42,763 bases of DNA from a virus: the IMG/VR virus record IMGVR_UViG_3300010883_008028, positions 1-42,763 of that record. One strand, 5' to 3'. Positions 700 through 38,357 of this stretch are shown here, piece after piece; the stretch's first letter is position 1; every line of letters begins with the position of its first letter. The notes under the pieces are model-generated. The model was given only the letters and a program-made list of their open reading frames with translations. It was not told the DNA's origin and ran no database searches. Made by a program: the position numbers and the translations under genes.

Positions 700-858
700 A
701 TGGAATACATACTAAGAAACTGCGTTAACGACAACCAAGTTCAGACCCATATGACATGGCCCACACGAGTGGATGCCCTGAACTACGTCTGGGAGAACTT
801 TGAACGTGGAGTGGTGTGGGTCGATGCCAATGACCGCCCTGCTGTGTTGAACCACTGA
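700..858 (+). CDS. Small hypothetical early protein
   Basis: A 52-residue protein beginning MEYILRNCV, not recognised. An upstream in-frame ATG at 655 lies inside the promoter, before the expected transcription start near 673, so it cannot be the start. The ATG at 700 sits behind an AGAGATAGAGAGACA purine tract that matches the leaders of other early genes; ATG 682 is the only other option. The stop overlaps the next start (TGATG), so translation of the two is probably coupled. Confidence 0.55.
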   Translation: MEYILRNCVNDNQVQTHMTWPTRVDALNYVWENFERGVVWVDANDRPAVLNH

Positions 859-1142
859 TGGCATATGCACCGTTTGACGCGGGAATGCAAGTGGGCGAGT
901 TCAGAGAGAAGGACTTTGGCAACTTCTTTGAGTATGGCATGAACCCCGACTTGGAACAAGACTTCTGCCCCAATCTGCCTCACATAGTGTGGGTGGGTGG
1001 CATACAAGGCACTCAGCAGTATAGATATGCCTACGTCAGGAAGACCGTGGCTTACGTGGCCATTGATGAGAATGATGATGGTACGCCCCTGATAGAGAAG
1101 TGGCACATAAAGGGCCGTAAGGAATACAGCGAATATATTTAA
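858..1142 (+). CDS. Hypothetical early protein
   Basis: A 94-residue soluble protein that I do not recognise. The start overlaps the previous stop by one base, which argues that both are real and cotranslated from the promoter at 638. The middle is aromatic-rich (HIVWVGG, QQYRYAYVRKTVAYVAID), with alternating hydrophobic residues suggesting beta strands. The frame closes just before the next promoter at 1151, so the unit contains two genes. No catalytic motif is visible. Confidence 0.6.
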   Translation: MAYAPFDAGMQVGEFREKDFGNFFEYGMNPDLEQDFCPNLPHIVWVGGIQGTQQYRYAYVRKTVAYVAIDENDDGTPLIEKWHIKGRKEYSEYI

Positions 1143-1150
1143 AATAGTTC

Positions 1151-1179
1151 TTGACATCTGCTCCAATATGTGTCATGAT
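1151..1179 (+). promoter_or_regulatory. Early-type promoter
   Basis: TTGACA at 1151–1156, spacer of 17 starting TCTGCT, CATGAT at 1174–1179 overlapping TGATCA. The leader continues with the usual ATCAAGAGAAGGAAAG purine tract, but the ATG that follows is stopped after two codons (ATG GAT TGA). Confidence 0.75.
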
Positions 1180-1199
1180 CATTAAAGAAATCAAGAGAA

Positions 1200-1684
1200 G
1201 GAAAGCTAATGGATTGAGTACAACGTAAACCCCACAGACACCGTGACCTGTCACCTGTAATGACGGTAAATAATAGTTCACTAGGGGGTCGGAGATGATT
1301 ACAGGGAGCCACGCTGGCAATAGAACAATCCAACCCTTGGATGTTCCTCCCCCAGAAGGCCCATGACGAGAGGGACTGGCCTCGGTAAAAAGGTGGGGAG
1401 ATTCGGGGTAGTGTCACACGAGGTCAGGTCTCGGAGTGCGCGGCAGACCCTCTGTCACAATTGGGGTAGTGTCGGTGCCTTCAGAAAGCACCGATGCCCA
1501 CTAGTGGGTGGAGAGCAGCACCGATGCCAATAGCGGCCTATGCCAGCATAGCGAGGGGGCGTTACCTTACAGGCGCATCTGGCATCCCCCCATGTCTAAA
1601 TGCTTTAAAAGTTTTTCCCAGCCAACAGAAACCGCCACAGAATTTTTACGAAAAATCCAAGAATTTTTTACGGGATACAAATAA
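1200..1684 (+). ncRNA. Gene-free, hairpin-rich leader or candidate structured RNA
   Basis: About 480 bases downstream of a strong promoter hold no convincing protein. Instead there are many local stems: ATCCAA/TTGGAT with a CCC loop (near 1329), GGTCT/AGACC (near 1427), TCGGTGC/GCACCGA (1470s–1490s), a CCCACTAGTGGG palindrome (about 1498), CTATGC/GCATAG (near 1545) and a GGGGG/CCCCC closing pair (1556 to about 1590). Two direct repeats (GGGGTAGTGTC near 1393 and 1463; GCACCGATGCC near 1488 and 1518) are present. The stretch looks richer in G+C than its neighbours. It could be a free RNA or the 5' leader of the glycosyltransferase at 1685. No known family is claimed. Confidence 0.4.
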
Positions 1685-2755
1685 ATGACCCAAGCAACTT
1701 TGCTGCGTCCCCCACACGATAGCGTTGGTTCTCCTATATCTTCGGATACCTTCCCCCGTTCCTTCGACTGTGTGATTAACTTACAAGTGGCCGGCGGCAA
1801 GAATCGTTTCATGGAGAAGATGTTCGCTGGGGAGTTCAAAACGCAACACGTTCTGGTGTTCAATGCAGGCGAATCAGAGATGTGTAGAGAGTTTGAGTAT
1901 CACTCGACTGGCATGTGGTTCGCTAGTTACACTGAGGTTACTGGTGCGTTCACGATGGATAGATTCACACCATCGGCAGAGAATGTTCATGTAGTATCTT
2001 ATCCCTATATCTGGTTACAAGACCAACTCATACGACACGGTTCCAACAAAGAGCAGTTCACGCATTCGGTGTTTCAGGAGATTTTCAGCGTTGGCGCTCC
2101 GCGAGTTCTTTTTACCTATATGATGAGGCAACCTAAACCGCATCGTAGAATGATGTGGGACTTATTAGAAAAGGAAAATCTCGTTAACGAATTCTGTACG
2201 AATGCTGAGAAAGGAATCTGTCTTGATTTAAAAGATAATAAGATGAAAGACTCCGATGTTCTGGACAATACGGTTTATGCCGATGATGTCCAGCACCAAT
2301 CACATAGGTTTCCGCCTTGGTACTTTGACTGCCTAATTGATTTTATACCAGAGACCCATACATCTCAGATGTTCTTTACTGAGAAGACTTGGAGGGCATT
2401 TCTAGGCATGAGGGTTCCTATTATCATAGGAGCGCAGAACTGTATGAAGTCACTGACTGCGATAGGATTCCAGTTTCCCTCATATATCAAGTGGGATGAA
2501 TGGGATAACAAACAGCATGAATATGATCGTATCAAAGGCGCAATATCGGTTCTAAAAGAACTGAGACAAGAACAAGTCGCTGACCTCTGGAGATTATCCA
2601 GGCCTGAGAGGAAGCACAATTTTCAGCTTGCTCTATGCCTCGCGGGCAAATATCACCCACCATTCCAAGGTGAGGGGTTTGAAGATTACACCCATGTATA
2701 CGATTTTGCGAAAGGAATCGCTGATCACGCCAAAGAAAACCTAGATTTCTCTTGA
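1685..2755 (+). CDS. Putative glycosyltransferase (GT10-like C-terminal motif)
   Basis: A 356-residue soluble protein. Around residues 225–260 it has FFTEKTWRAFLGMRVP followed by IIIGAQ and later LTAIGFQFP. This is the same signature (E-K-T-x-[KR] … P-x-I/M-x-x-G … L-x-x-x-G-[FY]) as in the two larger proteins at 28325 and 30065. It resembles the nucleotide-sugar-binding region of GT10/fucosyltransferase-like and other GT-B enzymes, so sugar transfer is likely but donor and acceptor are unknown. Unlike its relatives it lies outside the long biosynthetic operon, alone behind the structured leader at 1200–1684. The ATG at 1685 follows ACGGGATACAAATAA; no better start exists. Confidence 0.55.
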   Translation: MTQATLLRPPHDSVGSPISSDTFPRSFDCVINLQVAGGKNRFMEKMFAGEFKTQHVLVFNAGESEMCREFEYHSTGMWFASYTEVTGAFTMDRFTPSAENVHVVSYPYIWLQDQLIRHGSNKEQFTHSVFQEIFSVGAPRVLFTYMMRQPKPHRRMMWDLLEKENLVNEFCTNAEKGICLDLKDNKMKDSDVLDNTVYADDVQHQSHRFPPWYFDCLIDFIPETHTSQMFFTEKTWRAFLGMRVPIIIGAQNCMKSLTAIGFQFPSYIKWDEWDNKQHEYDRIKGAISVLKELRQEQVADLWRLSRPERKHNFQLALCLAGKYHPPFQGEGFEDYTHVYDFAKGIADHAKENLDFS

Positions 2756-2780
2756 CATCTGCCCAGAACCTTGGTATGAT
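2752..2780 (+). promoter_or_regulatory. Early-type promoter
   Basis: TTGACA at 2752–2757 overlaps the last codons of the glycosyltransferase gene; the 17-base spacer begins TCTGCC and TATGAT lies at 2775–2780, followed by CATCAT. This is the copy with the best -10 in the group. Confidence 0.8.
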
Positions 2781-2817
2781 CATCATGTTGTTGTTTAAGA
2801 ATAGAAGGAAGTAAATC

Positions 2818-3060
2818 ATGGCTACACCTATCGAATACACGTTTCTAAAAGAAATCACAGTGTGGACAGAGGCCCCCAATACGCCCAACCATACATACAT
2901 ACTCAACCAGTACGGAAGGAACGTAGGGTATATCAAGACAGGCACTAAGGAAGAAATCATCTTCACCAAGCCGTCTGTACATTTCTCCAAGTCACACCGT
3001 AAGTTCATTACCCTAAAGAAGACTACTGAGTTACAGAGAGATTCATGGGAGTGCGCTTGA
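2818..3060 (+). CDS. Conserved phage hypothetical protein
   Basis: An 80-residue basic protein. Its pattern, K-E-[IV]-T-V-W near the start, then P-N-H-T-Y-x-L, then a Y-I-K-x-G-T strand and a C-terminal R-K-F-I-T-L-K, matches a small family I associate with T4-like marine phages; its function is unknown. The first gene after the promoter at 2752, with AGAAGGAAG as ribosome-binding site ahead of the ATG. Predicted mostly beta-stranded with no membrane segment. The next two genes overlap or abut it. Confidence 0.65.
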   Translation: MATPIEYTFLKEITVWTEAPNTPNHTYILNQYGRNVGYIKTGTKEEIIFTKPSVHFSKSHRKFITLKKTTELQRDSWECA

Positions 3061-3161
3061 AATGGATAACCGCGATGCTGGTATCGATGAGTCTCTGGTT
3101 AGTGGTGATAAAGACAGCAGCGGTACTACTGTCATTGTTCGTTACAGTGGAGGCCGTCTGA
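3045..3161 (+). CDS. Tiny hydrophobic protein overlapping its neighbours
   Basis: A 38-residue frame that starts inside the previous gene behind a good AGAGAG ribosome-binding site. It begins MGVRLKW and then is almost wholly hydrophobic with one membrane segment (about residues 10–36, ending TVEAV). It overlaps the frame at 3062–3253 for most of its length. Either this is the translated frame and the N-terminal half of the 3062 frame is a shadow, or both are used, or a -1 shift near GTC-TGA joins this segment to the second hydrophobic segment. I cannot choose from the sequence alone. Confidence 0.35.
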   Translation: MGVRLKWITAMLVSMSLWLVVIKTAAVLLSLFVTVEAV

Positions 3162-3253
3162 AGTGGGCGTTGTTCGCAGCAGGCGTTGTGGTGATCTACC
3201 TAACGGTGCTTGGAGTGATATTGGGACTTTTACTAAGATACGCGGTGGTATAG
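3062..3253 (+). CDS. Small single-pass membrane protein
   Basis: A 63-residue frame with a polar first half rich in Asp, Ser and Gly and one strong membrane segment at about residues 34–57, ending in an LLLRYAVV tail. A GGGAG tract lies about 10 bases before the ATG, and the next gene starts right after the stop, as expected for a packed early operon. The first half coincides with the hydrophobic frame at 3045–3161, which makes its composition suspect. Its role is unknown; phage proteins of this size and topology are often envelope-interacting. Confidence 0.5.
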   Translation: MDNRDAGIDESLVSGDKDSSGTTVIVRYSGGRLKWALFAAGVVVIYLTVLGVILGLLLRYAVV

Positions 3254-3559
3254 ATGCAGACATTTAATGGTTCAATGAAGTTCGATATGCATGGGCGGAG
3301 GCGTAAGACCAATGCTTGGAAGACCCGTTCCCCAGTGCGGCAAGCCGTGTTTAAACCCCTTGAGGCATCGCCTAATGTGCCCCGTGACGATCACCGTGAG
3401 AAGTACCCTTCCAAGAGTGATATGTCCACCAGCTACAGTTCTGGGTTGGATACATCGTTCAGGGTAGAGGAATCTAAGAAGTTCACCGTGGCACCTGCCT
3501 ATAACAAGGGTGCTTACCAAGTAATATCGCAGTCAGACGTAAAACACATTGGTCGGTAA
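3254..3559 (+). CDS. Conserved phage hypothetical protein (basic N-terminus)
   Basis: A 101-residue protein with a basic HGRRRKTNAWK motif near residues 13–23 and a Ser/Lys-rich, probably disordered centre. Small marine-phage proteins with an RRRKTxAWK motif are familiar to me as uncharacterised genes. The ATG at 3254 directly follows the previous stop; the ATG at 3275 (MKFDMHGRRRK) is an alternative start, and neither has a strong ribosome-binding site. Basic residues suggest nucleic-acid contact, but this is only inference. It is the last gene before the repeat and promoter cluster at 3561–3676. Confidence 0.55.
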   Translation: MQTFNGSMKFDMHGRRRKTNAWKTRSPVRQAVFKPLEASPNVPRDDHREKYPSKSDMSTSYSSGLDTSFRVEESKKFTVAPAYNKGAYQVISQSDVKHIGR

Positions 3560-3560
3560 A

Positions 3561-3587
3561 TAACTCCTTTAGTATCAATGGCTTACG
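3561..3587 (+). repeat. 27-bp direct repeat, copy 1
   Basis: Identical over 27 bases to 3608–3634; the core is CTTTAGTATCAATGGCTTACG. It lies in the gap after the gene ending at 3559. Confidence 0.85.
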
Positions 3588-3607
3588 AATTAATTTCATT
3601 TATTTTA

Positions 3608-3634
3608 TAACTCCTTTAGTATCAATGGCTTACG
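3608..3634 (+). repeat. 27-bp direct repeat, copy 2, next to a promoter
   Basis: Second perfect copy, ending 13 bases before the -35 of the promoter at 3648. CTCC near its start and GGAG just past its end could pair, so it may act as a stem in RNA or as a protein-binding site in DNA. A partial copy (TATCAATGGCTTA, 4243–4255) occupies the same place before the promoter at 4272. Confidence 0.85.
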
Positions 3635-3647
3635 GAGGCAGATAAAC

Positions 3648-3676
3648 TTGACATCTGCTCGAAAGTGTGTCATGAT
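3648..3676 (+). promoter_or_regulatory. Early-type promoter
   Basis: TTGACA at 3648–3653, spacer of 17 starting TCTGCT, CATGAT at 3671–3676 overlapping TGATCA. The leader carries AACTAAAGAGAGAAAG before the ATG at 3709. Confidence 0.8.
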
Positions 3677-3708
3677 CACTACATAAGATCAACTAAAGAG
3701 AGAAAGAT

Positions 3709-3993
3709 ATGACCGTTCAAAGAATCCAGAAAGTAGAAGACGTTAAACAGGCAATGATGACTATGACTCAAACCGAGTTGGACTACGTTATCCAGATTGC
3801 TCGTTCTATTAAGACTATCGCCGCTGAGGCAGTGTTCACCGTTGGGCAAGAAGTGATGGTCGTTCAAAAGACCAAAATGACCCCCGCCACCATCGTCAAG
3901 ATGAACCCCAAAAAGGCAGTGGTTAATATGAACTACGGACGCCGTGGAATGACCCGCGTTACAGTTCCTTATTCTATGTTGGAGGCAGCGTAA
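3709..3993 (+). CDS. Conserved phage protein with KOW/SH3-like C-terminal half
   Basis: A 94-residue protein. Residues 1–40 look helical (EDVKQAMMTMTQTELDYVIQIAR). The second half, VFTVGQEVMVVQKTKMTPATIVKMNPKKAVVN with the line closing in VPYSMLEAA, has the turn pattern of a KOW/SH3-like barrel, in which V-G-x-x-V…P-A-T-I-x-K-x-N is typical. Related small proteins are common in T4-like marine phages; such barrels often touch nucleic acid or ribosomal partners, but the role here is unknown. It has a clean AAGAGAGAAAGAT ribosome-binding site and overlaps the next gene by one base. Confidence 0.65.
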   Translation: MTVQRIQKVEDVKQAMMTMTQTELDYVIQIARSIKTIAAEAVFTVGQEVMVVQKTKMTPATIVKMNPKKAVVNMNYGRRGMTRVTVPYSMLEAA

Positions 3994-4220
3994 TGTACGC
4001 ACCACAGACCCACAACTACGCTGAGACCAGCGACTACAACCAAATGAAAGTCTACTACTACCATGTAGAACGTGACTTTTTCACCGATAAAATCGCATGG
4101 TTAGACCAAAATGCCAAGATCGACAGAGTTATTGTCGATTCGGAGAAGACGGCACAGGAAATTGACGCCGTTTTCACCAAGATATATGGACAAGCTCGCA
4201 CAATGATGTATTCAATTTGA
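3993..4220 (+). CDS. Hypothetical early protein
   Basis: A 75-residue soluble protein with a tyrosine-rich N-terminus (MKVYYYHVERDFF) and a helical C-terminus. Not recognised. The ATG overlaps the stop of the previous gene (TAATG), so the two are read as a pair from the promoter at 3648. The frame ends just before the repeat-plus-promoter element at 4243–4300. Confidence 0.6.
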   Translation: MYAPQTHNYAETSDYNQMKVYYYHVERDFFTDKIAWLDQNAKIDRVIVDSEKTAQEIDAVFTKIYGQARTMMYSI

Positions 4221-4242
4221 ACTATTTTCGCTTTCCCTTATA

Positions 4243-4255
4243 TATCAATGGCTTA
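4243..4255 (+). repeat. Partial third copy of the promoter-proximal repeat
   Basis: TATCAATGGCTTA is shared exactly with the 27-bp repeats at 3561 and 3608. The flank GGAGAGCAGATAATG before the -35 also parallels GGAGGCAGATAAA in copy 2, so the whole repeat–promoter module seems duplicated. Confidence 0.65.
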
Positions 4256-4271
4256 GGAGAGCAGATAATGC

Positions 4272-4300
4272 TTGACTTTTGCCCCATAGTATGTCATGAT
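4272..4300 (+). promoter_or_regulatory. Early-type promoter
   Basis: TTGACT at 4272–4277, 17-base spacer starting TTTGCC, CATGAT at 4295–4300 overlapping TGATCA. The leader AAGTAATCAAGAGAGAGAGAG is nearly the same as after other promoters of this set. It should drive 4333 through at least 6290. Confidence 0.8.
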
Positions 4301-4332
4301 CACTAAGTAATCAAGAGAGAGAGAGAAAAAAG

Positions 4333-4689
4333 ATGGCTTACGTTTCACAAGAAAACAAGAAAGAACTCGCAGTTGGTATCAAACAAGTGCTTAAGAAATA
4401 CAAAATTAAAGCTTCTATCGGTGTGTCTAATCATTCCACCCTAGTAGTAAATCTGAAGTCCGGTGTTATCGACTTCAAGAGGCAACAAGATCACTATCAG
4501 GTTAATCCATACCACATCGAGAGGCAGTGGACTGGCCAGGCAAAAGACTTCCTTATGGAATTGCTTGCCGCGATGAAAGGTGAGATGTGGTATGATAATT
4601 CAGACGCTATGACTGACTACTTTGACACTGCATTCTACACTGATATCAACATTGGTAAGTGGAACCAAAATTACGAGGTAACTGCATAA
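4333..4689 (+). CDS. Conserved phage hypothetical protein (118 aa)
   Basis: A 118-residue protein beginning MAYVSQENKKELA. The pattern of an N-terminal helix ending LKKYKIKASIGV, then H-S-T-L-V-V-N-L-K-S-G, a helix with FLMELLAAMKGE, then WYDNSDAMTDYFDTAFYTDINIG with a final GKWN, recurs in a widespread family of tailed-phage proteins that I know only as conserved hypotheticals. It is the first gene of the operon behind the promoter at 4272 and has a long GAGAGAGAGAAAAAAG tract upstream. The final TAA overlaps the next ATG. Confidence 0.75.
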   Translation: MAYVSQENKKELAVGIKQVLKKYKIKASIGVSNHSTLVVNLKSGVIDFKRQQDHYQVNPYHIERQWTGQAKDFLMELLAAMKGEMWYDNSDAMTDYFDTAFYTDINIGKWNQNYEVTA

Positions 4690-4928
4690 TGGATTGGAAT
4701 CTTGAAGGTAAATTAGTCAACGCCACATATTGTGGCATTGCAGTCGAGGGTTGGGTTAAAAGATCCTTCTCTCAGTACGGCGGGACGGTAGGGCATTTAA
4801 TTACCCTAACACAACCCGTTAAAATTCTTGACCGCGTTGAGCTTGAGGAGGGCGTGTTGATGATTGACCATACCGCGCTAACTCAAATTCGTGATAAGAG
4901 TGGTTTCTGTTCTTTGGCAGTTGGGTAA
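4689..4928 (+). CDS. Hypothetical protein (79 aa)
   Basis: A 79-residue protein beginning MDWNLEGK. I place the start at 4689, where ATG overlaps the previous TAA (TAATG), rather than at the upstream in-frame start 4659, which would overlap the neighbour by 31 bases. Alternating hydrophobic residues (HLITLTQPVKILDRVELEEGVLMID) suggest a small beta-rich fold. Function unknown. Confidence 0.6.
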   Translation: MDWNLEGKLVNATYCGIAVEGWVKRSFSQYGGTVGHLITLTQPVKILDRVELEEGVLMIDHTALTQIRDKSGFCSLAVG

Positions 4929-5410
4929 TGGATTTATCTTGCCGTGTAACCGGCGGAACTGAAGTACAAAAACATATCGCGTACACGACAATAGGTTTCT
5001 GTGTTCGCAAATTATTCCCCTCTATTAGAAAGCTTGACCTGAATATCTGCATCAAGAAGTTTAAGGCTGATGATGACGCGATTGGTTACTGTCAAGTGGA
5101 TACATGTGAACCCTTTGACTATGTAAGAACTAGTCCCAGACGTTTTAAAGTAGAGATATCAAAAGCCTTGGACTTGATGAGTTTCATAAGAGTGCTGTGC
5201 CACGAGATGGTACACGTTAAACAGTTTATCAAAGAAGAACTTACAGACACCGACTCCGGTCAATCTAAATGGAAGTCTAAGGTCTACAGTCACAACACCC
5301 CGTACATGGATTGCCCTTGGGAGAAAGAGGCATACAAGCAAGAAGACGCATTGTTATGGGAATGTTTACTGACTACACAAATTAATATATCGGGAGAGAA
5401 CAAAGAATGA
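4928..5410 (+). CDS. SprT-like/minimal zinc metalloprotease domain protein
   Basis: A 160-residue protein with a clear zincin motif, HEMVH at residues 92–96 (His92, Glu93, His96), inside a helix (IRVLCHEMVHVKQF). The third zinc ligand is probably Glu132 or Glu134 in the PWEKEAY segment, about 36 residues later, a spacing typical of small gluzincin/SprT-like domains found in phages. The expected activity is zinc-dependent proteolysis in the host cytoplasm; the substrate is unknown. The sequence before the motif is strand-rich, as in SprT folds. The start overlaps the previous stop (TAATG). Cysteines are frequent (five by eye in the first 95 residues), possibly structural. Confidence 0.7.
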   Translation: MDLSCRVTGGTEVQKHIAYTTIGFCVRKLFPSIRKLDLNICIKKFKADDDAIGYCQVDTCEPFDYVRTSPRRFKVEISKALDLMSFIRVLCHEMVHVKQFIKEELTDTDSGQSKWKSKVYSHNTPYMDCPWEKEAYKQEDALLWECLLTTQINISGENKE

Positions 5411-6300: not shown

Positions 6301-7497
6301 ATGAATTTTCCAAAATCAAAAGTTTCACCTAACATGAAAGAGGGATATGTCTTTGATATAAAAGGCATGGATAGATTTTATCAAAAGGATATTGCGGCTG
6401 TTTTACCAGTGATGGAAACCGGAATCGTACCCTTTCATCCGACTCTATATAAGAAATTAAAACATATTAGGGTCAAAAAATTACTGACACTAATCGAAAT
6501 GTCCGATGTCCAGAATGGTTCAACCTTTGGCATGACCCAGCAAGATAGACTGAGGGGTGTAAATAATGAGTTCAACGCAATAAATATAAGCATTTATAAT
6601 AATGGATATAAATTTCTACATCCAGCAATTGCCGTGTACTGGGAACCAAAATCTACACACGGTAAGTATGAAATAATAACAGGCCGAAGCCGATGTGATA
6701 GTTTGATGGGTTATCATTTTCAAAATTTGCCTGTTACTGTATATGAAAGAGTGCCTGGCTCTACAGATGCGGAAGTAAGGAGTGAACTTTCTGTATGTGG
6801 GCAATCATTTCAAATCCATGACCCCGCTGGAAAACCAGCCACTGATGATATATTTGCGGAAGTATGTAGAGCAATTGACAATGGATGGATTGGTAAAGAC
6901 CGCGAGGATATTCGAGAAAGAATCGCATCCTGTTGTGGTAACGGTGTGTTCACAAGTGACACCAGAGACAAACTCCTCTCTAGAGTTGAGAATACATACA
7001 ACCCAGATCAAAGAGTAATATCTTGGGGTGTTAGACAAGGGCTAAAGTCTCCGAAAAAGTGGGTTCAAGAAGAAGGTTATGCCGAACTGGAAACTGACAA
7101 GGTTAAGTATCATATATACACTACGGAGAATTTTCCTAAAACATGGGCATCTATTCAAAGTAAGTTAACGAAGGGAAAAGAAAATCGTATTTTAGTTCAT
7201 ACAGGTACACTAAATTCTTCTCTTGATTTGGCTGAATGTTTTCGTGATAGAGTAGAGACATTCAAGAAAAATTACACTGAAATGGTTGAATCTGTTGGTG
7301 TTAATTACTACGCTAAAACCAATGGACAGTATGATGAAAAAGGTGTTGGTAATGGTTTGCGATATGGTAACACTGTGCTCTATGGTGTGCTTCCCTGCTT
7401 AAGTTCGATACACGATTTAAGCAAAATAATACACTTTGATGCTAGTGGAAGAATGTTTCAAAATAAAGTAAAAAAAGACTTGACACTTGCTGCATAA
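6301..7497 (+). CDS. ParB/sulfiredoxin-fold-like protein
   Basis: A 398-residue protein. Residues 105–148 contain HPAIAVYWEP, then YEIITGRSRCDSLMGYHFQNLPVTVYE, which matches the ParB/Srx N-terminal layout (target strand, G-x-[RS]-R, helix, I-P-V-x-V strand). Phage proteins with this fold can be nucleases or nucleotide-binding switches, so DNA or nucleotide interaction is likely but not shown. The rest is a mixed alpha/beta region ending in a Gly/Tyr-rich part (residues 320–360) that I cannot assign. The last codons contain the -35 of the promoter at 7480. ATG at 6301 follows AACTAAGAAGTAGATT with a weak ribosome-binding site. Confidence 0.55.
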   Translation: MNFPKSKVSPNMKEGYVFDIKGMDRFYQKDIAAVLPVMETGIVPFHPTLYKKLKHIRVKKLLTLIEMSDVQNGSTFGMTQQDRLRGVNNEFNAINISIYNNGYKFLHPAIAVYWEPKSTHGKYEIITGRSRCDSLMGYHFQNLPVTVYERVPGSTDAEVRSELSVCGQSFQIHDPAGKPATDDIFAEVCRAIDNGWIGKDREDIRERIASCCGNGVFTSDTRDKLLSRVENTYNPDQRVISWGVRQGLKSPKKWVQEEGYAELETDKVKYHIYTTENFPKTWASIQSKLTKGKENRILVHTGTLNSSLDLAECFRDRVETFKKNYTEMVESVGVNYYAKTNGQYDEKGVGNGLRYGNTVLYGVLPCLSSIHDLSKIIHFDASGRMFQNKVKKDLTLAA

Positions 7498-7508
7498 AGT
7501 GTTATAAT
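7480..7508 (+). promoter_or_regulatory. Early-type promoter for an RNA locus
   Basis: TTGACA at 7480–7485, 17-base spacer starting CTTGCT, consensus TATAAT at 7503–7508 followed by GATCAC. It lies in the 3' end of the ParB-like gene and fires into the tRNA-like and structured region. Confidence 0.85.
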
Positions 7509-7542
7509 GATCACATCAACAACGGAAACAAGGAACTTCCGT

Positions 7543-7550
7543 TATAAATA
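7543..7550 (+). promoter_or_regulatory. T4-type late promoter motif
   Basis: A perfect TATAAATA, as recognised by the T4 gp55 late sigma. With the usual spacing, transcription would begin about 6 bases later, almost exactly at the 5' end of the tRNA-like sequence (7555). Confidence 0.55.
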
Positions 7551-7554
7551 GATT

Positions 7555-7623
7555 GCGGTGGACTGTATAGTACGATTCATTTCCAGTGAATTAGGTGAGG
7601 TGAGACTCCTCGACACCGCTCCA
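7555..7623 (+). tRNA. Degenerate tRNA-Gly(UCC) with reduced D-loop, CCA encoded
   Basis: Acceptor stem GCGGTG(G)/(A)CACCGC pairs at six of seven positions, with discriminator U and an encoded CCA (7621–7623), both normal for bacterial tRNA-Gly. The anticodon arm is perfect: ATTCA/TGAAT (7575–7579, 7587–7591) around TTTCCAG, anticodon TCC at 7582–7584. The T-stem TGAGG/CCTCG (7596–7600, 7608–7612) has five pairs, but its loop is TGAGACT instead of TTCRANY. The D region is only 13 bases (7562–7574) and could form just GTA/TAC around three bases, so the usual GG is missing. It is either a highly unusual tRNA or a tRNA-derived element. Confidence 0.6.
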
Positions 7624-7821
7624 TTATGAGGGGGATTAACATCGAGTCCTAGACAGGACTGTAATCCCAATGTAACCTCTAAACTGTCTCGCCGCTTTGG
7701 CGTTAAACCTAATAGGAGACCTGAGCAAGTCACTGGTATAGTACACCGAAAACCGCTACGTCATCCCACTCAACGGGTGCAAAGAGTGCTGGGGCAACCA
7801 CTCTATAAAAGGCCCCACCTA
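7624..7821 (+). ncRNA. Structured region with nested stems and an H-type pseudoknot
   Basis: No open frame. Nested stems: GGGATTA (7632–7638) with TAATCCC (7662–7668), enclosing AGTCCT/AGGACT (7645–7650, 7655–7660). Hairpin CGCC/GGCG at 7690–7702. Pseudoknot: AGAGTG (7783–7788) with CACTCT (7799–7804), interlocked with GGGGC (7791–7795) and GCCCC (7812–7816); loops of 2, 3 and 7 bases. A competing pairing of CACTC with GAGTG a little upstream is also possible, so a switch is conceivable. It follows the tRNA-like element in the same transcript and precedes the gene at 7880. Family not identified. Confidence 0.45.
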
Positions 7822-7847
7822 ATTTGTGTACGGTTAACCTTAGTTAA
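7822..7847 (+). repeat. Left imperfect inverted repeat flanking the gene at 7880
   Basis: Begins ATTTGTGTACG and continues GGTTAACCTTAGTTAA. Its reverse complement closely matches 8182–8209, including an 11-base perfect match. GTTAAC occurs twice within it, so it could also be a stem or operator. Confidence 0.7.
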
Positions 7848-7879
7848 CTTAATTTTAAGATAAGAAATAGGAATATATT

Positions 7880-8179
7880 ATGAGAAAAACTTCACAAGCA
7901 ACTAAGGTGATTTCAGCCTTGCAGAGTGCAGACTACACTGATAGTGGTCTCACTGCTAACGAAATGAAAAATAAGTTTGGCGTTTCCAACGCTCGGGCAT
8001 TAGTTACACAACTACGCCAGAACGGTTTCGCTGTTTACTTAAACAAAACCCCAGCATACGTTGACCGTAATGGTAATGAACGTAAAGGTGTCTCACGATA
8101 TCGCTTGGGAACTGCATCTCGCGCCGTTATCGCCGCTGGATATAAAGCCATCGCTGCTGGTTTAGTCGCCACTAGTTAG
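7880..8179 (+). CDS. Small winged-helix/HTH-like phage protein
   Basis: A 99-residue basic protein. Residues 1–50 carry a helix-turn-helix or winged-helix pattern (LTANEMKNKFGVSNARALVTQLRQNGFAVYLNK), the last part matching a wing (YVDRNGNERKGVSRYRLGT). It ends in an Ala/Gly-rich helix (SRAVIAAGYKAIAAGL). Related small proteins are widespread in tailed phages and presumed to bind DNA; no target is known. It has an AGGA ribosome-binding site eight bases before the ATG and a strong terminator at 8219. The inverted repeats on both sides (7822–7847, 8182–8209) could be its own operators or marks of a cassette. Confidence 0.7.
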   Translation: MRKTSQATKVISALQSADYTDSGLTANEMKNKFGVSNARALVTQLRQNGFAVYLNKTPAYVDRNGNERKGVSRYRLGTASRAVIAAGYKAIAAGLVATS

Positions 8180-17160: not shown

Positions 17161-17954
17161 GCAACGTGGCGATAATTGGATATGGATTTTGTGGCAAGGC
17201 AACACATAAGATTCTAAAACAAGTAGAAACAATTAATAGAATACAAATACATGACCCGCAATGGCAGATGTATAAGAAACCCATTACTGATTGGAGGGGT
17301 ATAGACTATGCATTCATATGTGTGCCTACTCCGATAACTGATGGCGAACTCAAGTTTAATTATGGTCACATCCTAGATGCTACCGTGGAGATTCCAGAGG
17401 GTGTGCAAATTGTTATCCGCAGTACTGTTGGCCCAGAAGCATTGTCCCATACTTGGATTCACTGGCCAGAGTTTCTACGGGAAAGTCATTGGGAACAAGA
17501 TGCCGAGGATATGTCCATACCAATTATCCTTGGTGGACACATGAGCGCCGTAAAAAGCAACATGACATCAAAATCGCTCAAAGAAATGAGTGGGTGGTTT
17601 CCACACCGCGAAAGTGTAATTCTTACTGGTGCAAAAGAAGCCGCGATTTACAAGTTGTCTAGAAACGCTATGTTGGCCGCGAAGGTTGTCATGTGCAATT
17701 ATATACACAGTGTATGTAAGGAACAGAATTGTTCTTACAGTGAAGTTGCCAGTATGTTGTTGAACTTTGGTAACCTTGGTAATACTCATATGAGTGTGCC
17801 CGGCCCAGATGGCGAACATGGTTTTGGTGGTTCGTGTTTCCCGAAAGACATCTCGCATCTTGCTGGGTTGCAACTAGATTCAAGTCACTACGCGGTTGAT
17901 AATATTTTTGATGCGGTACTGGAGTGCAATGAGCGATATCGTAAAACTGTATAA
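17157..17954 (+). CDS. NDP-sugar (UDP-glucose/GDP-mannose) 6-dehydrogenase, short form
   Basis: A 265-residue member of the UDP-glucose/GDP-mannose dehydrogenase family. It has the NAD loop GYGFCG (8–13), CVPTP (55–59), the central-helix Lys166/Asn170 pair (KLSRN) and the catalytic loop GFGGSCFPKD with Cys227 and Asp231, so all catalytic residues are present. The C-terminal nucleotide-sugar-binding domain of full-length enzymes (over 400 residues) is missing. Such enzymes oxidise C6 of the sugar to a carboxylate in two steps. Without the last domain it might need a partner or have a different substrate. A second relative is at 31117. Overlaps the first radical SAM gene by 26 bases. Confidence 0.75.
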   Translation: MSNVAIIGYGFCGKATHKILKQVETINRIQIHDPQWQMYKKPITDWRGIDYAFICVPTPITDGELKFNYGHILDATVEIPEGVQIVIRSTVGPEALSHTWIHWPEFLRESHWEQDAEDMSIPIILGGHMSAVKSNMTSKSLKEMSGWFPHRESVILTGAKEAAIYKLSRNAMLAAKVVMCNYIHSVCKEQNCSYSEVASMLLNFGNLGNTHMSVPGPDGEHGFGGSCFPKDISHLAGLQLDSSHYAVDNIFDAVLECNERYRKTV

Positions 17955-19212
17955 AGATATTGCAGAAAGAAACAATGCAGTAGGTGATGGGTTTTGTGTT
18001 CTCAAGTGGTGGCACTTGGAAATGCATTTGGGTACTGGCAACTATCATTCTTGTTTTCATTGTCCCCAGCAGAATCTAAAACTCGGTGAAGACATACACA
18101 ACACCCTTCACAAAATGCAACAACGAAAAACTATGTTGAGGGGTGGGAGACCCGAAGAATGTTCTTATTGTTGGAAGGCGGAAGATGCGGGTGCTGTAAG
18201 CCCTAGAACAACTCTCTCTGCCATATACACTGAGATGCAACCAGACATAATAGAAACCACTGCGTCACTGGAGTGGGACGAATATGTTTATCCAAAATAT
18301 CTGGAGATGAGTTTTTCAAATACATGTCAGATGAAATGTTCTTACTGCGCCCCATCATTGAGTTCTACTCTGTTGAAAGAAATTAAAGACATGGGTGCGT
18401 ACCCATTGAAAGACCCAGAGAGTAGAGGTCAGTATGAGTTGAATGGCACGGAAGAACTTTATAAGGATGATAATAACCCCCTAGTCAAAAAGTTCTGGAG
18501 TTGGTTTGACACTGCTATAGAACATCTTGACACACTACGGATTACTGGTGGCGAACCCTTGTTACACAAAGGTATGTTTGATATGTTGGAGTACTTGAAG
18601 AATTCTCCGCATGATATAAACTTCCATGTAAACAGCAATCTATCAATATCAAACCGTAGAGTTAAACAGACATGCGACCTCCTACCATCAAAGTCTAAAG
18701 TGTATGCTAGTGTTGATACATATGGAAAACAGGCAGAGTGGATTCGACACGGGCTTGATTGGGAACTTTTTGAAGAGAATGTTCTAACGGTCATTGACCA
18801 CGGAATCCCAATTAGTTTTATGACAACATTTTGTCTTCTTAGTATACCTAACTTCAAAGACTTCTTGTACTATGTTATACAATTAAAAGACATAGGTGAT
18901 GTTAAGATAGACACCCCATTTATGACAAACCCACCTCATTTATCATGTCTTATAATGGATGATAAGATGCGGGATATGCTAGAGGACAGTTACCAATTTA
19001 TGGTAGAGAATAGTGAATTCAATGAAGCAGAAGTAATTAAATTTGAGAGAGTTCTTAAATGGGTTGACAATAATAGGTACACCGGAGAACGCCTAAATAG
19101 ACACAGGAGAGACTTTAAAACCTTTGTCGATGAACATGATAAACGCAGGGGTAGTAATTGGCACGATGCATTCCCCGAACTAAAATATTTTTATGAGTTA
19201 TGTGATGTCTGA
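17929..19212 (+). CDS. Radical SAM protein 1 (N-terminal twitch/SPASM-like, type A)
   Basis: A 427-residue radical SAM enzyme. The [4Fe–4S] motif is CQMKCSYC (Cys133, 137, 140) and GGEP (207–210) lines the SAM site. Before the core is a cysteine-rich region: C23-VLKWW…SC42-FHC45 and later ECSYCW, which resembles a SPASM/twitch auxiliary cluster placed N-terminally. Type A members (here, 19205, 20806) share C-x-x-K-W and S-C-x-H instead of C-x-x-P-W and C-C. The end has the RRGSNW..AFPEL pattern shared by the group. Start 17929 has TGGAG upstream; an in-frame ATG at 17896 is less likely. The substrate is unknown. Confidence 0.8.
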   Translation: MSDIVKLYKDIAERNNAVGDGFCVLKWWHLEMHLGTGNYHSCFHCPQQNLKLGEDIHNTLHKMQQRKTMLRGGRPEECSYCWKAEDAGAVSPRTTLSAIYTEMQPDIIETTASLEWDEYVYPKYLEMSFSNTCQMKCSYCAPSLSSTLLKEIKDMGAYPLKDPESRGQYELNGTEELYKDDNNPLVKKFWSWFDTAIEHLDTLRITGGEPLLHKGMFDMLEYLKNSPHDINFHVNSNLSISNRRVKQTCDLLPSKSKVYASVDTYGKQAEWIRHGLDWELFEENVLTVIDHGIPISFMTTFCLLSIPNFKDFLYYVIQLKDIGDVKIDTPFMTNPPHLSCLIMDDKMRDMLEDSYQFMVENSEFNEAEVIKFERVLKWVDNNRYTGERLNRHRRDFKTFVDEHDKRRGSNWHDAFPELKYFYELCDV

Positions 19213-20611
19213 GAATAAACCCAACGAATACTGGATGGAACAACTCAAAGAGAAACGAGAAAAGATTAATTCTATCTCGCCTTCTTTTTGTTCTGCTAAG
19301 TGGTTACAGACAACTTTGTATTTGCAGAATGGATACAATCATTCTTGTCACCACCCGTCACCACACAAAATCCCTGTTAAAGAAGTGTTGGAAAATCCAG
19401 CTGCTCTCCACAACAGCAACTATAAAAAACAACAAAGAATTAAAATGCTCAATGGTGAAAGACCCAAAGAGTGCGACTACTGTTGGAAGATAGAAGACCA
19501 AGGCAAAGACCATTACTCAGACCGACATTACAAAACTGCCGATTGGTGGTCGTGGGATAAAGTTGACCTTATCGCAACCAGTAATCCAACTGAAGATGTA
19601 TACCCATCATACCTAGAAGTATCATTTAGTAATGCGTGTAATTTTGCGTGTGCTTATTGTTCACCGGAAATCAGTTCTACTTGGATGAAAGATATCGAAG
19701 AGAACGGTGACTACCCAGTTAAGTTTGGTTCTGGTAACTTAGACTATTTGCGTTCAGTTGAAAAGTTCCCATACAAACACTCAGATGATAATCCATATGT
19801 TGATGCGTTTTGGAAATGGTTTCCAGAAGCCCTTCCCCACTTAAAGGTGTTTCGTGTTACTGGTGGTGAACCAACCATGAGTAAAGATGTTTGGAAAGTT
19901 CTGGATTACATATACGAAAATGCACAACCAGAACTGTCGATTGCAATCAATAGTAACCTTGGCACAGACCCTAGACTTATACAGAGGTTGATTGATGCAT
20001 GTAACAAACTAGAGGGCAAGGTTAAACAGATTGAGATATATACCAGTTGTGAGGCTATCGGTGAACAGGCTGAATACATTCGGGACGGGTTAGATTACAA
20101 TTACTGGATGGCTAATTGTGAACGGGTGTTATCAGAGACAAATGCCAATGTTGCTATTATGACAACATTAAATATTTTGAGTATGACAACATTCAATGAC
20201 TTCATCGAAGACATAATGAAACTAAGAATAACGTACAACAAGGATTTGGCGAACAATCGCATACCATTGAGTGTAAACTACTTGCGATTCCCCCCACACC
20301 TACAATGTACGTTGTTAGATATAGACACGAGAATATCTTATGCGAATCAATATGAACTCACGGCAAAGAGTTGGTTGAAGTATGACTCACCTGATAAATT
20401 TGCAAGAATATACTTGGAAGAATATGACCAGATACAGAGGTTCTGCGAATACTTGCGGGGAGAAGATAATACTGCTAAAAAATACAGGGCAGACTTTGTA
20501 AATTATATAAAAGCGTATGATATCAGAAGATCGAAAAACTTTAGCGAAACTTTCCCAGAATACACACATTTATTGGAGGAGTGGAATGTCCAAAAAATAC
20601 ATTCATGTTAA
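19205..20611 (+). CDS. Radical SAM protein 2 (type A)
   Basis: A 468-residue paralogue of the preceding gene. The core motif is CNFACAYC (Cys145, 149, 152) and VTGGEPTMS follows near residue 222. The N-terminal region has FCSAKW…NHSCHHPSPHK and ECDYCWKIED, hence a C-x-x-K-W/S-C-H-H auxiliary region. The C-terminus (RRSKNFSETFPEY) repeats the group's tail. The end of the core contains FPPHLQC, parallel to NPPHLSC in protein 1. An ATG at 19193 is an alternative start; neither has a clear ribosome-binding site, consistent with coupled translation from the previous gene, which it overlaps. Confidence 0.8.
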   Translation: MSENKPNEYWMEQLKEKREKINSISPSFCSAKWLQTTLYLQNGYNHSCHHPSPHKIPVKEVLENPAALHNSNYKKQQRIKMLNGERPKECDYCWKIEDQGKDHYSDRHYKTADWWSWDKVDLIATSNPTEDVYPSYLEVSFSNACNFACAYCSPEISSTWMKDIEENGDYPVKFGSGNLDYLRSVEKFPYKHSDDNPYVDAFWKWFPEALPHLKVFRVTGGEPTMSKDVWKVLDYIYENAQPELSIAINSNLGTDPRLIQRLIDACNKLEGKVKQIEIYTSCEAIGEQAEYIRDGLDYNYWMANCERVLSETNANVAIMTTLNILSMTTFNDFIEDIMKLRITYNKDLANNRIPLSVNYLRFPPHLQCTLLDIDTRISYANQYELTAKSWLKYDSPDKFARIYLEEYDQIQRFCEYLRGEDNTAKKYRADFVNYIKAYDIRRSKNFSETFPEYTHLLEEWNVQKIHSC

Positions 20612-20813
20612 TATGCATAAAATCCGTGCCAACAAAAAACATGGAACGGATGAACCTGTCCTTACAGTGAAGGAAGGTAGAAAAAATACTTATGGTCACA
20701 GGGTAAAGATACACGGGCCGAGTGAAGTTTTGTATGGTGGTAATGATAAACCGTTATTGCCATGCGGTGCAAGAGTTGTTATAATGACAGAAGCGGAGAT
20801 AGAGATTGAGTAA
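20586..20813 (+). CDS. Conserved small phage protein
   Basis: A 75-residue protein starting MSKKYIHVNMHKIRANKKHG and ending CGARVVIMTEAEIEIE. The order N-x-H-K-I-[RK]-x-N, D-[EP]-P-V-[IL]-T, Y-G-H-x-[VA]-x-I-x-G and P-L-x-C-G-A-R-V recurs in a small protein found across many tailed phages; its function is unknown. An excellent GGAGGAG ribosome-binding site supports the ATG at 20586 over an upstream in-frame start. It sits between two radical SAM genes, overlapping both, so it is expressed together with them. Given its wide distribution, it is not obviously part of their pathway. Confidence 0.75.
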   Translation: MSKKYIHVNMHKIRANKKHGTDEPVLTVKEGRKNTYGHRVKIHGPSEVLYGGNDKPLLPCGARVVIMTEAEIEIE

Positions 20814-22308
20814 CGAATTTGATTTAATTAAGTATCGAAAGGATATTCTGGATACTAAGTCAGAAAGTTTTTGCGGTGCTAAGTGGTATAATGCAACTAC
20901 ATGGTTGGGAAGTGGTACAACCGCTTCTTGTCATCACCCCCCAGCTCACAAAATTCCACTACATGAAATTGCAGTCAACCCATCTGCCATTCATAATACG
21001 CAACACAAGAAGGCGATGCGTAAGATGATGCAGAATGGAGAACGGCCTCGTGAATGTGAGTATTGCTGGAAGGTCGAAGATATGCCGACTGAAGCTGTTA
21101 GTGACCGTGTTTATAAATCAATCATTTATTCAAACGATGACTTGCAGAAGGCACAAGATGCCGACTTCAATGATAACACCTTGTTGAAGACTTTTGAGAT
21201 TGCATTTGACCGGACATGTAACCTTGCTTGTTCTTATTGTAATTCTAGTTTCTCCACTACATGGGCAAAGGACATTAAGAAGAATGGCCCGTACCAGAAT
21301 ATGGTATCCGATGGTGCTGCTGCATTTCAACACGATGGTGAGTGGGCAGACCCTTATGGAAAGAAACAAGAGAACCCTTATGTAACTGCTTTCTGGGATT
21401 GGTGGGATGATGGTCTTTCTAAGAGTCTAGAAGAATTGCGTGTTACTGGTGGCGAACCATTGATGTCTGACCAAGTGTGGAAACTTTTTGATTGGTTTCA
21501 AAAGAACCCATCCGATATGAGGTTTGCTGTTAATTCAAACTTGATTGCGAAACCAAGTATCATTGATAAGGTAATAGAAAAGTCTCACGGACTCAAACAC
21601 TTCCACCTATACACAAGTTGTGAGAGTACAGGCAAACAAGCCGAGTATATTCGGGATGGTCTTGATTATGATATGTGGTATAATAATGTAGTTCGATTGA
21701 TTAAAGAAGGTAACTGCGAAGGCATCAATATAATGATGACTGTCAATAGTCTGTGCCTATTTAATATTACCGATTTCCTAGAGGACGTATTTAAACTAAA
21801 AGAAATCAACCAGAGTAAGACACCCGTGTTCAGTGTTAACCTGTTGAGGTTTCCAAGTTTCCAGAGTCCACTGGCATTACCAGACCATATAAAGGATTAC
21901 CTCAGAAACAAACTATCCGATTGGTATGAAGATAACAAGGACAGGGATTACTGGCATGACTTTGAGAAGGCTAGTATTGAGAGGTTGATTGACTACTTAG
22001 AAGTTGTTGATGCACCACATAGACGGACTAGTGACAAGATGACTCTCTGGCGAGACTTCAAGACCTTCTACGCGCAATATGACACCCGCCGTGGTAAGAC
22101 TTTGGATGTATTTCCAGAAATCCTTACTGATTGGGTGGATACTATCCCCGACACCGTAACCGAACAAATCGTACAAATGGTGGATGGTGATAGTACCAGA
22201 CAGTACGACAATGACCCAGACTTGCAAAAGGTTGCAGATGAAGAGGGTTGGGTTTTGAAACCCGACAATAAAAACATCGATGAAGCACTAGGTGACTATG
22301 ACAAGTAG
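20806..22308 (+). CDS. Radical SAM protein 3 (type A)
   Basis: A 500-residue radical SAM enzyme and the longest of the set. Core CNLACSYC (Cys138, 142, 145), then VTGGEPLMSD. N-terminal auxiliary region: C23-GAKW…SC42-HHPPAHK and C84-EYC87-WKVED. It is closest to protein 2 (identical order of motifs, AIHNTQHKKAMRKM versus ALHNSNYKKQQRIKM). The C-terminal extension after DVFPEI (about residues 430–500) is acidic and absent from its relatives. The start is TTG at 20806, overlapping the previous stop, with GGAGA seven bases upstream; no ATG is near. Confidence 0.8.
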   Translation: MSNEFDLIKYRKDILDTKSESFCGAKWYNATTWLGSGTTASCHHPPAHKIPLHEIAVNPSAIHNTQHKKAMRKMMQNGERPRECEYCWKVEDMPTEAVSDRVYKSIIYSNDDLQKAQDADFNDNTLLKTFEIAFDRTCNLACSYCNSSFSTTWAKDIKKNGPYQNMVSDGAAAFQHDGEWADPYGKKQENPYVTAFWDWWDDGLSKSLEELRVTGGEPLMSDQVWKLFDWFQKNPSDMRFAVNSNLIAKPSIIDKVIEKSHGLKHFHLYTSCESTGKQAEYIRDGLDYDMWYNNVVRLIKEGNCEGINIMMTVNSLCLFNITDFLEDVFKLKEINQSKTPVFSVNLLRFPSFQSPLALPDHIKDYLRNKLSDWYEDNKDRDYWHDFEKASIERLIDYLEVVDAPHRRTSDKMTLWRDFKTFYAQYDTRRGKTLDVFPEILTDWVDTIPDTVTEQIVQMVDGDSTRQYDNDPDLQKVADEEGWVLKPDNKNIDEALGDYDK

Positions 22309-23614
22309 GCTCAACATTAACGGGTCTGGGTTTTGTACTGCGCCATGGACACACACTTACGTTTCTCCTCAAGGGGAGAGGCGACTGTGTTGTGCCAGTA
22401 GAGAAGAAGCTAAATTCCAAAAACAATATTTGGATAGTGGTACTAAGAAAGGCAAGTTTGAACCAGAGACATTAGAAGAACACTGGAACAGTGATTATAT
22501 GAAAGACATTCGCAAGAGAATGTTGGCCGGTGAAAAACTAAAAGAATGTGAAGTATGCAATGACCAAGTTTTAAATCTACATACTTACAGGAAGTATTTT
22601 ACTGAGACATTGTTTCCACACAAGGTGGAAGATATAATCGCCAATACTGCGATGGATGGCACTTATAGTGACCTCCCAGTTTCATATGACTACCGCATAT
22701 CTAATCTATGCAACTTTAAATGCCGCATGTGCGGAGAACAACTTTCGTCTAGTTGGGAGGCAGAGAAAAAGAAACATAATCTCATTGATGTTAAACAAGA
22801 CCCTTGGATGGAACCCACCAATAGAAAGAAGATAACCAATTTCCAAGAAGAAGTATTGGAAGTGGAATTGCAGAGGGCTGTTGATAATAAGACGATAGAA
22901 GAAATCTATTGGGTTGGCGGTGAACCATTGATGTGGGAACGTCATTGGACTATCATGCAACAGTTGGTAGACAATGGTCACTCGAAAAATGTCACCATCC
23001 GTTATAACACAAATCTGAGCCGTGTCAAGTATAAAGACTATAACTTGTGGGACATGTTGCCACACTTCAAGAATGTTAACATATGTGCCAGTATTGATGG
23101 TGCGTATGATGTCGGTGAATATATCAGAGATGGGTTGGTATGGAGTGAGTGGATAGAGAACTTTAAATCGGGTATGTTTCTCATTGACCAATTTGGTGAT
23201 GATGCATTGGTGCTTGATGTAACACTAACTACGCCGGGATTATTTCATCTCAAACAGATGTTTGATGTTGCTAGGTCACTTGATGTAAAATCGTACTTCA
23301 AGTTCACTTATGCATTCGACCCCAGTGTTGTCATGTCACCTTTCTGTTTACCTAAAAATATTCTTGAACCATTGGTAAATGATTTACTGGAATACATTGA
23401 ACCCAACCTAACATGGAAGACTAAGGTGTATAAAGAATCATTGGTGAGTCTAATAAATAGAGAGTCGTTTGATGAGCAATGGCCGAACTCATATAAAGAT
23501 GGACTTAAACGTGGTAAAGAGTTTCAAGTTTATCTAGATGATTTGAGAAATACTAAATTGAAATTCGTGGATACACTTCACGGAGATGCTGTGGATTGGT
23601 GGGATAGAATATGA
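22298..23614 (+). CDS. Radical SAM protein 4 (type B, N-terminal SPASM-like)
   Basis: A 438-residue radical SAM enzyme. The core motif is CNFKCRMC (Cys138, 142, 145) and WVGGEPLMWE follows. The N-terminus has GFCTAPWTHTYVSPQGERRLCC and KECEVCND, which is the SPASM-domain signature (C-x-x-P-W … G-x-x-x-x-C-C … C-x-x-C), but placed before the core. The mid-region CASIDGAYDVGEYIRDG matches the A-S-[IV]-D-[GT] strand seen in all family members. Start at ATG 22298 has AGGTGA upstream; GTG 22292 is in frame too. Gene overlap with protein 3 is 11 bases. Confidence 0.8.
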   Translation: MTSRLNINGSGFCTAPWTHTYVSPQGERRLCCASREEAKFQKQYLDSGTKKGKFEPETLEEHWNSDYMKDIRKRMLAGEKLKECEVCNDQVLNLHTYRKYFTETLFPHKVEDIIANTAMDGTYSDLPVSYDYRISNLCNFKCRMCGEQLSSSWEAEKKKHNLIDVKQDPWMEPTNRKKITNFQEEVLEVELQRAVDNKTIEEIYWVGGEPLMWERHWTIMQQLVDNGHSKNVTIRYNTNLSRVKYKDYNLWDMLPHFKNVNICASIDGAYDVGEYIRDGLVWSEWIENFKSGMFLIDQFGDDALVLDVTLTTPGLFHLKQMFDVARSLDVKSYFKFTYAFDPSVVMSPFCLPKNILEPLVNDLLEYIEPNLTWKTKVYKESLVSLINRESFDEQWPNSYKDGLKRGKEFQVYLDDLRNTKLKFVDTLHGDAVDWWDRI

Positions 23615-38010: not shown

Positions 38011-38035
38011 CATTTGCTTGGATATGAGGTATTAT
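38007..38035 (+). promoter_or_regulatory. Early-type promoter of the tmRNA
   Basis: TTGACA at 38007–38012 overlapping the exonuclease stop, 17-base spacer starting TTTGCT, TATTAT at 38030–38035. Transcription would start near 38042, at the acceptor piece of the permuted tmRNA. Confidence 0.8.
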
Positions 38036-38039
38036 ACCT

Positions 38040-38047
38040 TATAAATA
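38040..38047 (+). promoter_or_regulatory. T4-type late promoter motif before the tmRNA
   Basis: Perfect TATAAATA just behind the early promoter's -10. Late transcription would begin near 38053, still before the acceptor domain (T-arm at 38087). The same pairing of early and late promoters occurs at the other RNA locus (7480 and 7543). Confidence 0.5.
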
Positions 38048-38312
38048 ACTAACACTCGATGAAACAAGTCGAACGGTCATCAAGACGGGAGTGCGAATCT
38101 CCCCGCCTCCACCATAAGGGCATTTGTAAGTCACAATGGTGTCCTTATGATGGGGGCGAATAGGTATCGATTGGGGCTAATTAGGTGCGTGGAGAGTTCG
38201 GTGAGGAAGCTACCGTGAACGCAACAAAACTATAAATGCAGAAGATAACTTTGCACATGAGAATTACGCTTTAGCGGCGTAGTCGCTCGGGGTTCTTGAG
38301 ACAGTTCCTAGC
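38042..38312 (+). ncRNA. ssrA: tmRNA, circularly permuted (two-piece)
   Basis: Acceptor piece first: T-arm GGGAG/CTCCC (38087–38091, 38099–38103) with loop TGCGAAT, acceptor strand CGCCTCC (38104–38110), discriminator A and CCA (38112–38114). An intervening segment (38115–38151) folds as a hairpin (ATAAGG/CCTTAT). The coding piece starts with GGGGGCG (38152–38158), which pairs with CGCCTCC (one G·U). Then come ATCGATTGGGG (tmRNA 5' domain, compare TTCGACGGG), a pseudoknot-like region, and the tag frame 38238–38282: AEDNFAHENYALAA, stop TAG. The layout matches the permuted tmRNA genes of alphaproteobacteria, whose precursor is cut into two RNAs. It would rescue stalled ribosomes or tag proteins during infection. 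Confidence 0.88.
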
Positions 38313-38333
38313 AACAGAATACTGTTTCTTTTT
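38313..38333 (+). terminator. Probable terminator after the tmRNA
   Basis: AACAG/CTGTT stem around AATA, followed by TCTTTTTAT. The hairpin is short but the T tract is good; it separates the tmRNA from the hydrolase gene. Confidence 0.6.
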
Positions 38334-38357
38334 ATCTCCCTAAGAGAAGGATAAAAA

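Follow-up and report, generated by a model that had tools for sequence, protein, structure and literature searches.

A conserved, non-standard tRNA-Gly gene in a marine phage, with a D-loop/T-loop elbow that is likely rewired

The window analyzed here is the entire IMG/VR viral record IMGVR_UViG_3300010883_008028, a stretch of 42,763 bases from a marine, bacteria-infecting virus. The virus was placed among the T4-like phages because the window encodes a gp32-type protein, a gp59-type protein and a late-transcription coactivator. A sigma-70-type promoter (TTGACA-17-TATAAT, 12 of 12 letters matching, with TG preceding the second hexamer) lies on the plus strand at 7480–7508 and is one of two perfect 12-letter matches in the whole window. 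It is followed, on the same strand, by a tRNA-Gly(UCC)-like gene with an encoded CCA (7555–7623), a second conserved non-coding RNA directly downstream (7624–7835) and the gene of a small winged-helix-like protein (7880–8179). The tRNA-Gly gene was recognized from its letters, by ARAGORN with adjusted settings, by covariation and from five relatives. Elsewhere in the window, the stretch 1200–1680, which follows an early-type promoter, has no good open reading frame and may contain a further structured RNA, and a motif around tatcaatggctta is repeated between early genes at 3559–3640 and 4214–4260. At 17896–28386 and 14592–36134, the window also encodes a row of radical SAM/SPASM proteins together with UDP-sugar dehydrogenases, a desaturase, a hydroxylase and a carbamoyltransferase; genes resembling this row, as judged by eye, are present at 785–5362 of locus L037.

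The 5′ strand of the acceptor stem, GCGGTGG (7555–7561), faces 7613–7619, and only six of the seven acceptor pairs form because the seventh is a G.A mismatch that is conserved in all relatives. Thirteen bases (ACTGTATAGTACG), among which GG is absent, separate acceptor base 7 from the anticodon stem and contain a reduced D arm at 7562–7571, predicted as the hairpin ACU-GUAU-AGU with three pairs and a 4-base loop that includes AU. The anticodon arm (7575–7591, ATTCA-TTTCCAG-TGAAT) presents the loop UUUCCAG with the anticodon UCC at 7582–7584, and the T arm (7596–7612, TGAGG-TGAGACT-CCTCG) begins with a U.G pair and carries the loop UGAGACU at 7601–7607, which supplies G55 and A56. The discriminator U73 and the encoded CCA occupy 7620–7623. 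The 7-base anticodon loop, U33 and the anticodon UCC are those of an elongator cloverleaf, and the canonical elbow letters, G18 and G19 of the D-loop and U55 and C56 of the T-loop, are absent. A preliminary description of this DNA had reported a tRNA-Gly(UCC)-like gene lacking the D-loop GG and the T-loop TTC, and this is confirmed; its account of the stems, U73 and CCA holds except for the seventh acceptor pair and the first T-stem pair.

Run over the window with default settings, ARAGORN made no call at 7555–7623 and reported only a permuted tmRNA, and the Rfam tRNA model gave no match in the region 7450–7900 at E values up to 10. In mitochondrial mode or with the threshold lowered to 40%, ARAGORN called tRNA-Gly(tcc) at exactly 7555–7623, drawing an alternative D hairpin with the loop UAG; at 40%, two further places were also called. 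The folding energy is unremarkable (z −0.85; 36 of 200 shuffles equalled or bettered it). The gene stands above chance because it is conserved, being found at the same place in one relative and in four more contigs with covarying helices.

The first relative, contig L002, was reached through an 85% identical homologue of the 7880–8179 protein; the corresponding position in L002 is occupied by a tRNA 76% identical to that of the window. When letters of both tRNAs were used for scanning, five viral contigs were returned, L002 among them. All six contigs, the window included, share the gene order promoter, tRNA-Gly, second RNA, and a perfect sigma-70-type promoter precedes tRNA-Gly in all five relatives. 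Scanning by the letters of the second RNA alone led to the identical five contigs and no other; thus, the presence of the tRNA there is independent of the T-loop search. A model search of the whole records scored the five relatives at 100.9–101.4 and 91.2 bits. Among a further 34 records, whose homologues of the 7880–8179 protein are more distant, no strong tRNA match was obtained (best E 0.08). No named phage showed similarity to 7400–7900 of the window, the protein upstream of tRNA-Gly had no similarity in phages or IMG/VR, and an exact 18-base pattern from the window tRNA matched nothing else. With the promoter-tRNA-RNA stretch of a relative as the query, only weak matches of 27–38 bases were obtained, all within its first 52 bases. 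A chance cloverleaf is ruled out by the conservation in the relatives.

The covariation alignment has six rows representing four distinct sequences. In this alignment, 97.4% of the stem cells pair. Both bases have changed in five of the pairs, of which the D hairpin contributes one and the anticodon and T stems two each. The covariation score was reached by none of 500 shuffles, and controls with slid partners dropped to 32–47% paired. The D hairpin ACU-GUAU-AGU/ACG-GUAUU-CGU has 100% of its cells paired versus 91.7% for the alternative GUA-UAG-UAC; two of the four distinct sequences have G-C for its third pair, which is U-A in the window. The comparison shows, on thin covariation, a D arm predicted to be cut to a three-pair hairpin. 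There is no variation in acceptor letters 1–4, 6 and 7 and their partners, in the anticodon loop UUUCCA, in U73 or in CCA, and the T-loop UGARACU is common to all relatives; two of the four distinct sequences have A.C at 27-43. GlyRS recognizes its tRNA through the identity letters G1-C72, C2-G71, G3-C70, U73, C35 and C36, and all of these are invariant in the six aligned sequences. The locus thus encodes a conserved, non-standard phage tRNA-Gly, in line with the first account of it, that has kept its glycine identity letters in every relative. Random decay of the acceptor stem or anticodon in relatives, which that account had named as the mark of a pseudogene, was looked for and is absent, as judged from the covariation and the fixed letters. 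A decaying pseudogene might well be missed by default ARAGORN and Rfam, as this gene is, but would hardly accumulate compensatory changes in three helices around an invariant acceptor end; we reject it on the covariation as extremely improbable.

To our knowledge, contact of G18 and G19 with the T-loop is near-universal in bacterial tRNAs. The canonical elbow, as passages of PMC4810234 describe it, consists of a G18–Psi55 contact and a G19-C56 pair. We examined this region in a wider sample by running ARAGORN on 136 loci (1.79 Mb), which produced 391 tRNA genes, 233 of them distinct; five members read by hand were added and two tRNAs with 8-base T-loops removed, leaving 236 tRNAs from a non-random set of loci whose rows are not independent. 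T-loop letters 55-56 go with a particular D-loop pair. Of 204 tRNAs with UC, 203 have GG; all 17 with GC have AG (14 of these rows being from the single contig L070), all 7 with UU have GA, and 7 of the 8 with GA have AU (five of the eight D-loops being delimited by hand). The exception among the UC tRNAs is in L021, where the loop agcttgata has no GG. Shuffling letters within loops gave P values of 0.0018, 0.021 and 0.011, with rows treated as independent. AG, GA and AU occur by accident in 142, 67 and 59 of the 204 canonical D-loops, so the pattern is firmer in the missing GG. The T-loop letters predict the D-loop pair as would be expected if 19-56 were always a Watson-Crick pair (G-C, A-U or U-A) and 18-55 either G.U or A.G.

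In the window tRNA-Gly, G55 and A56 are certain and AU is in the D-loop only under the better-supported hairpin. The preliminary description had taken the D–T contact as lost. Given that altered T-loops go with matching D-loop changes, the contact is more likely to be rewired: A18.G55 and U19-A56 probably replace G18.Psi55 and G19-C56, as the pattern across the 236 tRNAs suggests. With its elbow pairs re-lettered in this way, the tRNA would keep the L shape using different bases. The same swapped elbow is found in three phage tRNA-Met genes (L016 7038–7112, L020 9458–9530 and L032 7835–7909), which have the D-loop AGUAGNA and the T-loop UGCAA. Seven tRNAs likewise show a matched 19-56 change, with UUU in the T-loop and GA in the D-loop (tRNA-Arg ACG in L016, L021 and L032, tRNA-Phe and tRNA-Ile in L117, and the T5 tRNA-Ile in L078). 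No description of matched elbow changes in phage tRNAs was recognized in a literature search that covered few subscription journals. Altered D- and T-loops have reportedly been studied in the Steinberg laboratory.

Relaxed scans identified the G55A56 type of T-loop in tRNA-Gly(UCC) of five further lineages (L049, L058/L063, L061, L051/L055 and L070), of which L063 is Pseudaminobacter salicylatoxidans. The T-loop letters of these distant matches were fixed by the search pattern and are uninformative on conservation, and their model scores (27–44 bits) are inflated by the pattern letters; we relied for this reason on stems outside the patterns. Reading of the stems discarded 8 of 18, 7 of 9, 6 of 16 and 4 of 14 pattern matches in four scans as non-tRNA. 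In the five lineages, whose stems lay mostly outside the search pattern, the acceptor stem (7/7) and the anticodon stem (5/5) are complete everywhere, and the T stem is complete in four and 3/4 in L051. The D-loop GG is absent from all five, with the D region forming no part of the search pattern; AU is also missing from the L049 D-loop, AGCACCA. Some of the distant members may be decayed, given the six-base anticodon loop of L061 and the broken outer T stem of L051. The L070 member comes from a 5.4-kb contig labelled Opitutaceae that contains an array of 17 tRNAs (2827–5307), 14 of them with a G55 C56 T-loop and a D-loop AG, together with two tRNA-Met that have GG and UUC.

The RNA downstream of the phage tRNA-Gly is probably structured, 7 of 52 predicted pairs being changed on both sides between the window and L037–L041. 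It had no Rfam match in the window or in L038, and a T-box assignment was dropped by eye. On the minus strand of L063, an RNA closed by a long stem (3535–3689, fold z −2.09) lies directly downstream of the tRNA-like gene; its possible likeness to the second RNA was not supported by blastn. That tRNA-Gly and the second RNA are always together in the six contigs could mean that the tRNA is mainly a processing or stability module, at which RNase P and 3′ cleavage free the second RNA while decoding is secondary. Such a module would have no need of fixed glycine identity letters or a fixed anticodon loop, and no homologue of the second RNA was seen in the five further lineages, L063 alone being compared; we regard this explanation as quite unlikely.

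The permuted tmRNA of the window (38022–38373, tag AEDNFAHENYALAA) bears on the elbow as well. RF04321 scored above cut-off in four of six related records. The window tmRNA has UAGG in its D part and the T-loop UGCGAAU, also with G55, and the T-loops of two relatives are UGCGAUU and UGCAAAU. In the Rfam consensus lines, alphaproteobacterial tmRNA (RF01849) has UAGG and the T-loop GGCgGUA, where the permuted RF04321 has UGG and UUCGAUU, which is the same A18/G55 swap; unlike the window tRNA-Gly, this molecule is a tmRNA without an anticodon arm. As the swap appears both in tmRNA consensus lines and in the window tmRNA, the A18/G55 elbow is likely to be usable in living bacteria. A broader proposal, unlikely in our estimate, is that a second elbow code, A18.G55 with a re-lettered 19-56 pair, operates in phages and other mobile elements, both in their tRNA sets and in the permuted tmRNA of the phage. 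These RNAs would decode normally and yet go unseen by host elbow-readers such as defence nucleases and Psi55 or decay enzymes, and the window tRNA-Gly would be the most reduced member.

A narrower role against host enzymes would be a resistant tRNA supply, in which the host cleaves tRNA-Gly and the phage version, with its altered elbow or D arm, escapes cutting and still translates. Parts of PMC11555353 report that infection in the face of tRNA-cutting defences is rescued when phage tRNAs are expressed from strong promoters, and the perfect consensus promoter before tRNA-Gly in the window and its relatives would suit this role. According to sections of PMC12409363, AriB contacts D-loop bases and its cutting is impaired by a D-loop change. 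However, no defence that cuts tRNA-Gly was identified in this analysis, and no single nuclease explains an elbow pattern that extends to phage tRNA-Met, Arg and Ile and to the 17-tRNA array. We consider the resistant supply unlikely. An altered elbow could also shift the choice of partners, so that the molecule would act as a decoy binding a host tRNA-handling protein without translation; retention of the complete charging and decoding letters and of an encoded CCA makes this very improbable.

The explanation that we favour, with modest confidence, is a working early phage tRNA-Gly(UCC), shrunken in its D arm and with its elbow pairs swapped, that is charged by the host GlyRS and used on GGA and GGG codons. 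Transcription would start from the consensus sigma-70-type promoter. Charging by the host GlyRS is probable because the known identity letters are invariant, and the tRNA may then help the reading of GGA and GGG in a phage of higher AT content. In four records, GGA makes up 24–31% of the Gly codons and AGA 38–57% of the Arg codons (54–57% in the three relatives counted). A canonical tRNA-Arg(UCU) lies directly upstream of tRNA-Gly in L040, and this neighbour together with the AGA share fits codon compensation. Counting against a working tRNA are the three-pair D arm, far below the size seen in cellular tRNAs, and the main Gly codon, which is GGT rather than GGA. If the matched re-lettering is true, phage tRNAs are natural elbow double mutants, providing ready-made variants for tests of defence and modification enzymes. 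It would also follow that phage tRNAs are undercounted and that a gene should not be scored as a pseudogene because its elbow is non-canonical.

Among known systems, the non-proteinogenic tRNA-Gly species of staphylococci are similar in two respects: as passages of PMC4052509 give them, they lack GG at 18-19 and have A51-U63, both as in the window. This likeness, together with the large radical SAM/SPASM gene cluster, would suit a non-ribosomal role of the kind raised in the preliminary description. In this role, the tRNA would be a glycine donor that, once charged, is passed over by EF-Tu and the ribosome and serves a tRNA-dependent transferase, as happens in staphylococcal peptidoglycan synthesis. 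However, the window has U49.G65 in place of the staphylococcal A49-U65 noted in the same source; A51-U63 holds in three of the four distinct sequences with U-A in the fourth, and 51-63 is G-C or C-G in other members. No FemAB-type partner was found: FemAB (PF02388), Lant_dehydr_N and Acetyltransf_6 had no match in the six records, which are possibly fragments and whose hosts might supply the enzyme, and no shared transferase emerged from the 40 window proteins and the three families in relatives. The D-loop change is, moreover, probably matched by the T-loop in the window. We judge the donor role improbable and retain the decoding tRNA as the favoured reading. T5 (AY543070, by its annotation) also encodes a tRNA-Gly(UCC) within a phage tRNA set; relative to this canonical tRNA, the window gene lacks the D-loop GG and the T-loop UUC and has a D arm of three pairs. 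The T5 RNA1, RNA2 and RNA3 are, by annotation, tRNA-like stable RNAs without an assigned function that lie beside phage tRNAs, and the window tRNA-Gly differs from them in keeping the glycine letters and the anticodon. Metazoan mitochondrial tRNAs also have reduced arms, and a number of them miss the canonical elbow, as stated in portions of PMC4810234; unlike these, the tRNA-Gly with its reduced D arm described here belongs to a bacterial phage and retains both the T arm and a T-loop, which are conserved.
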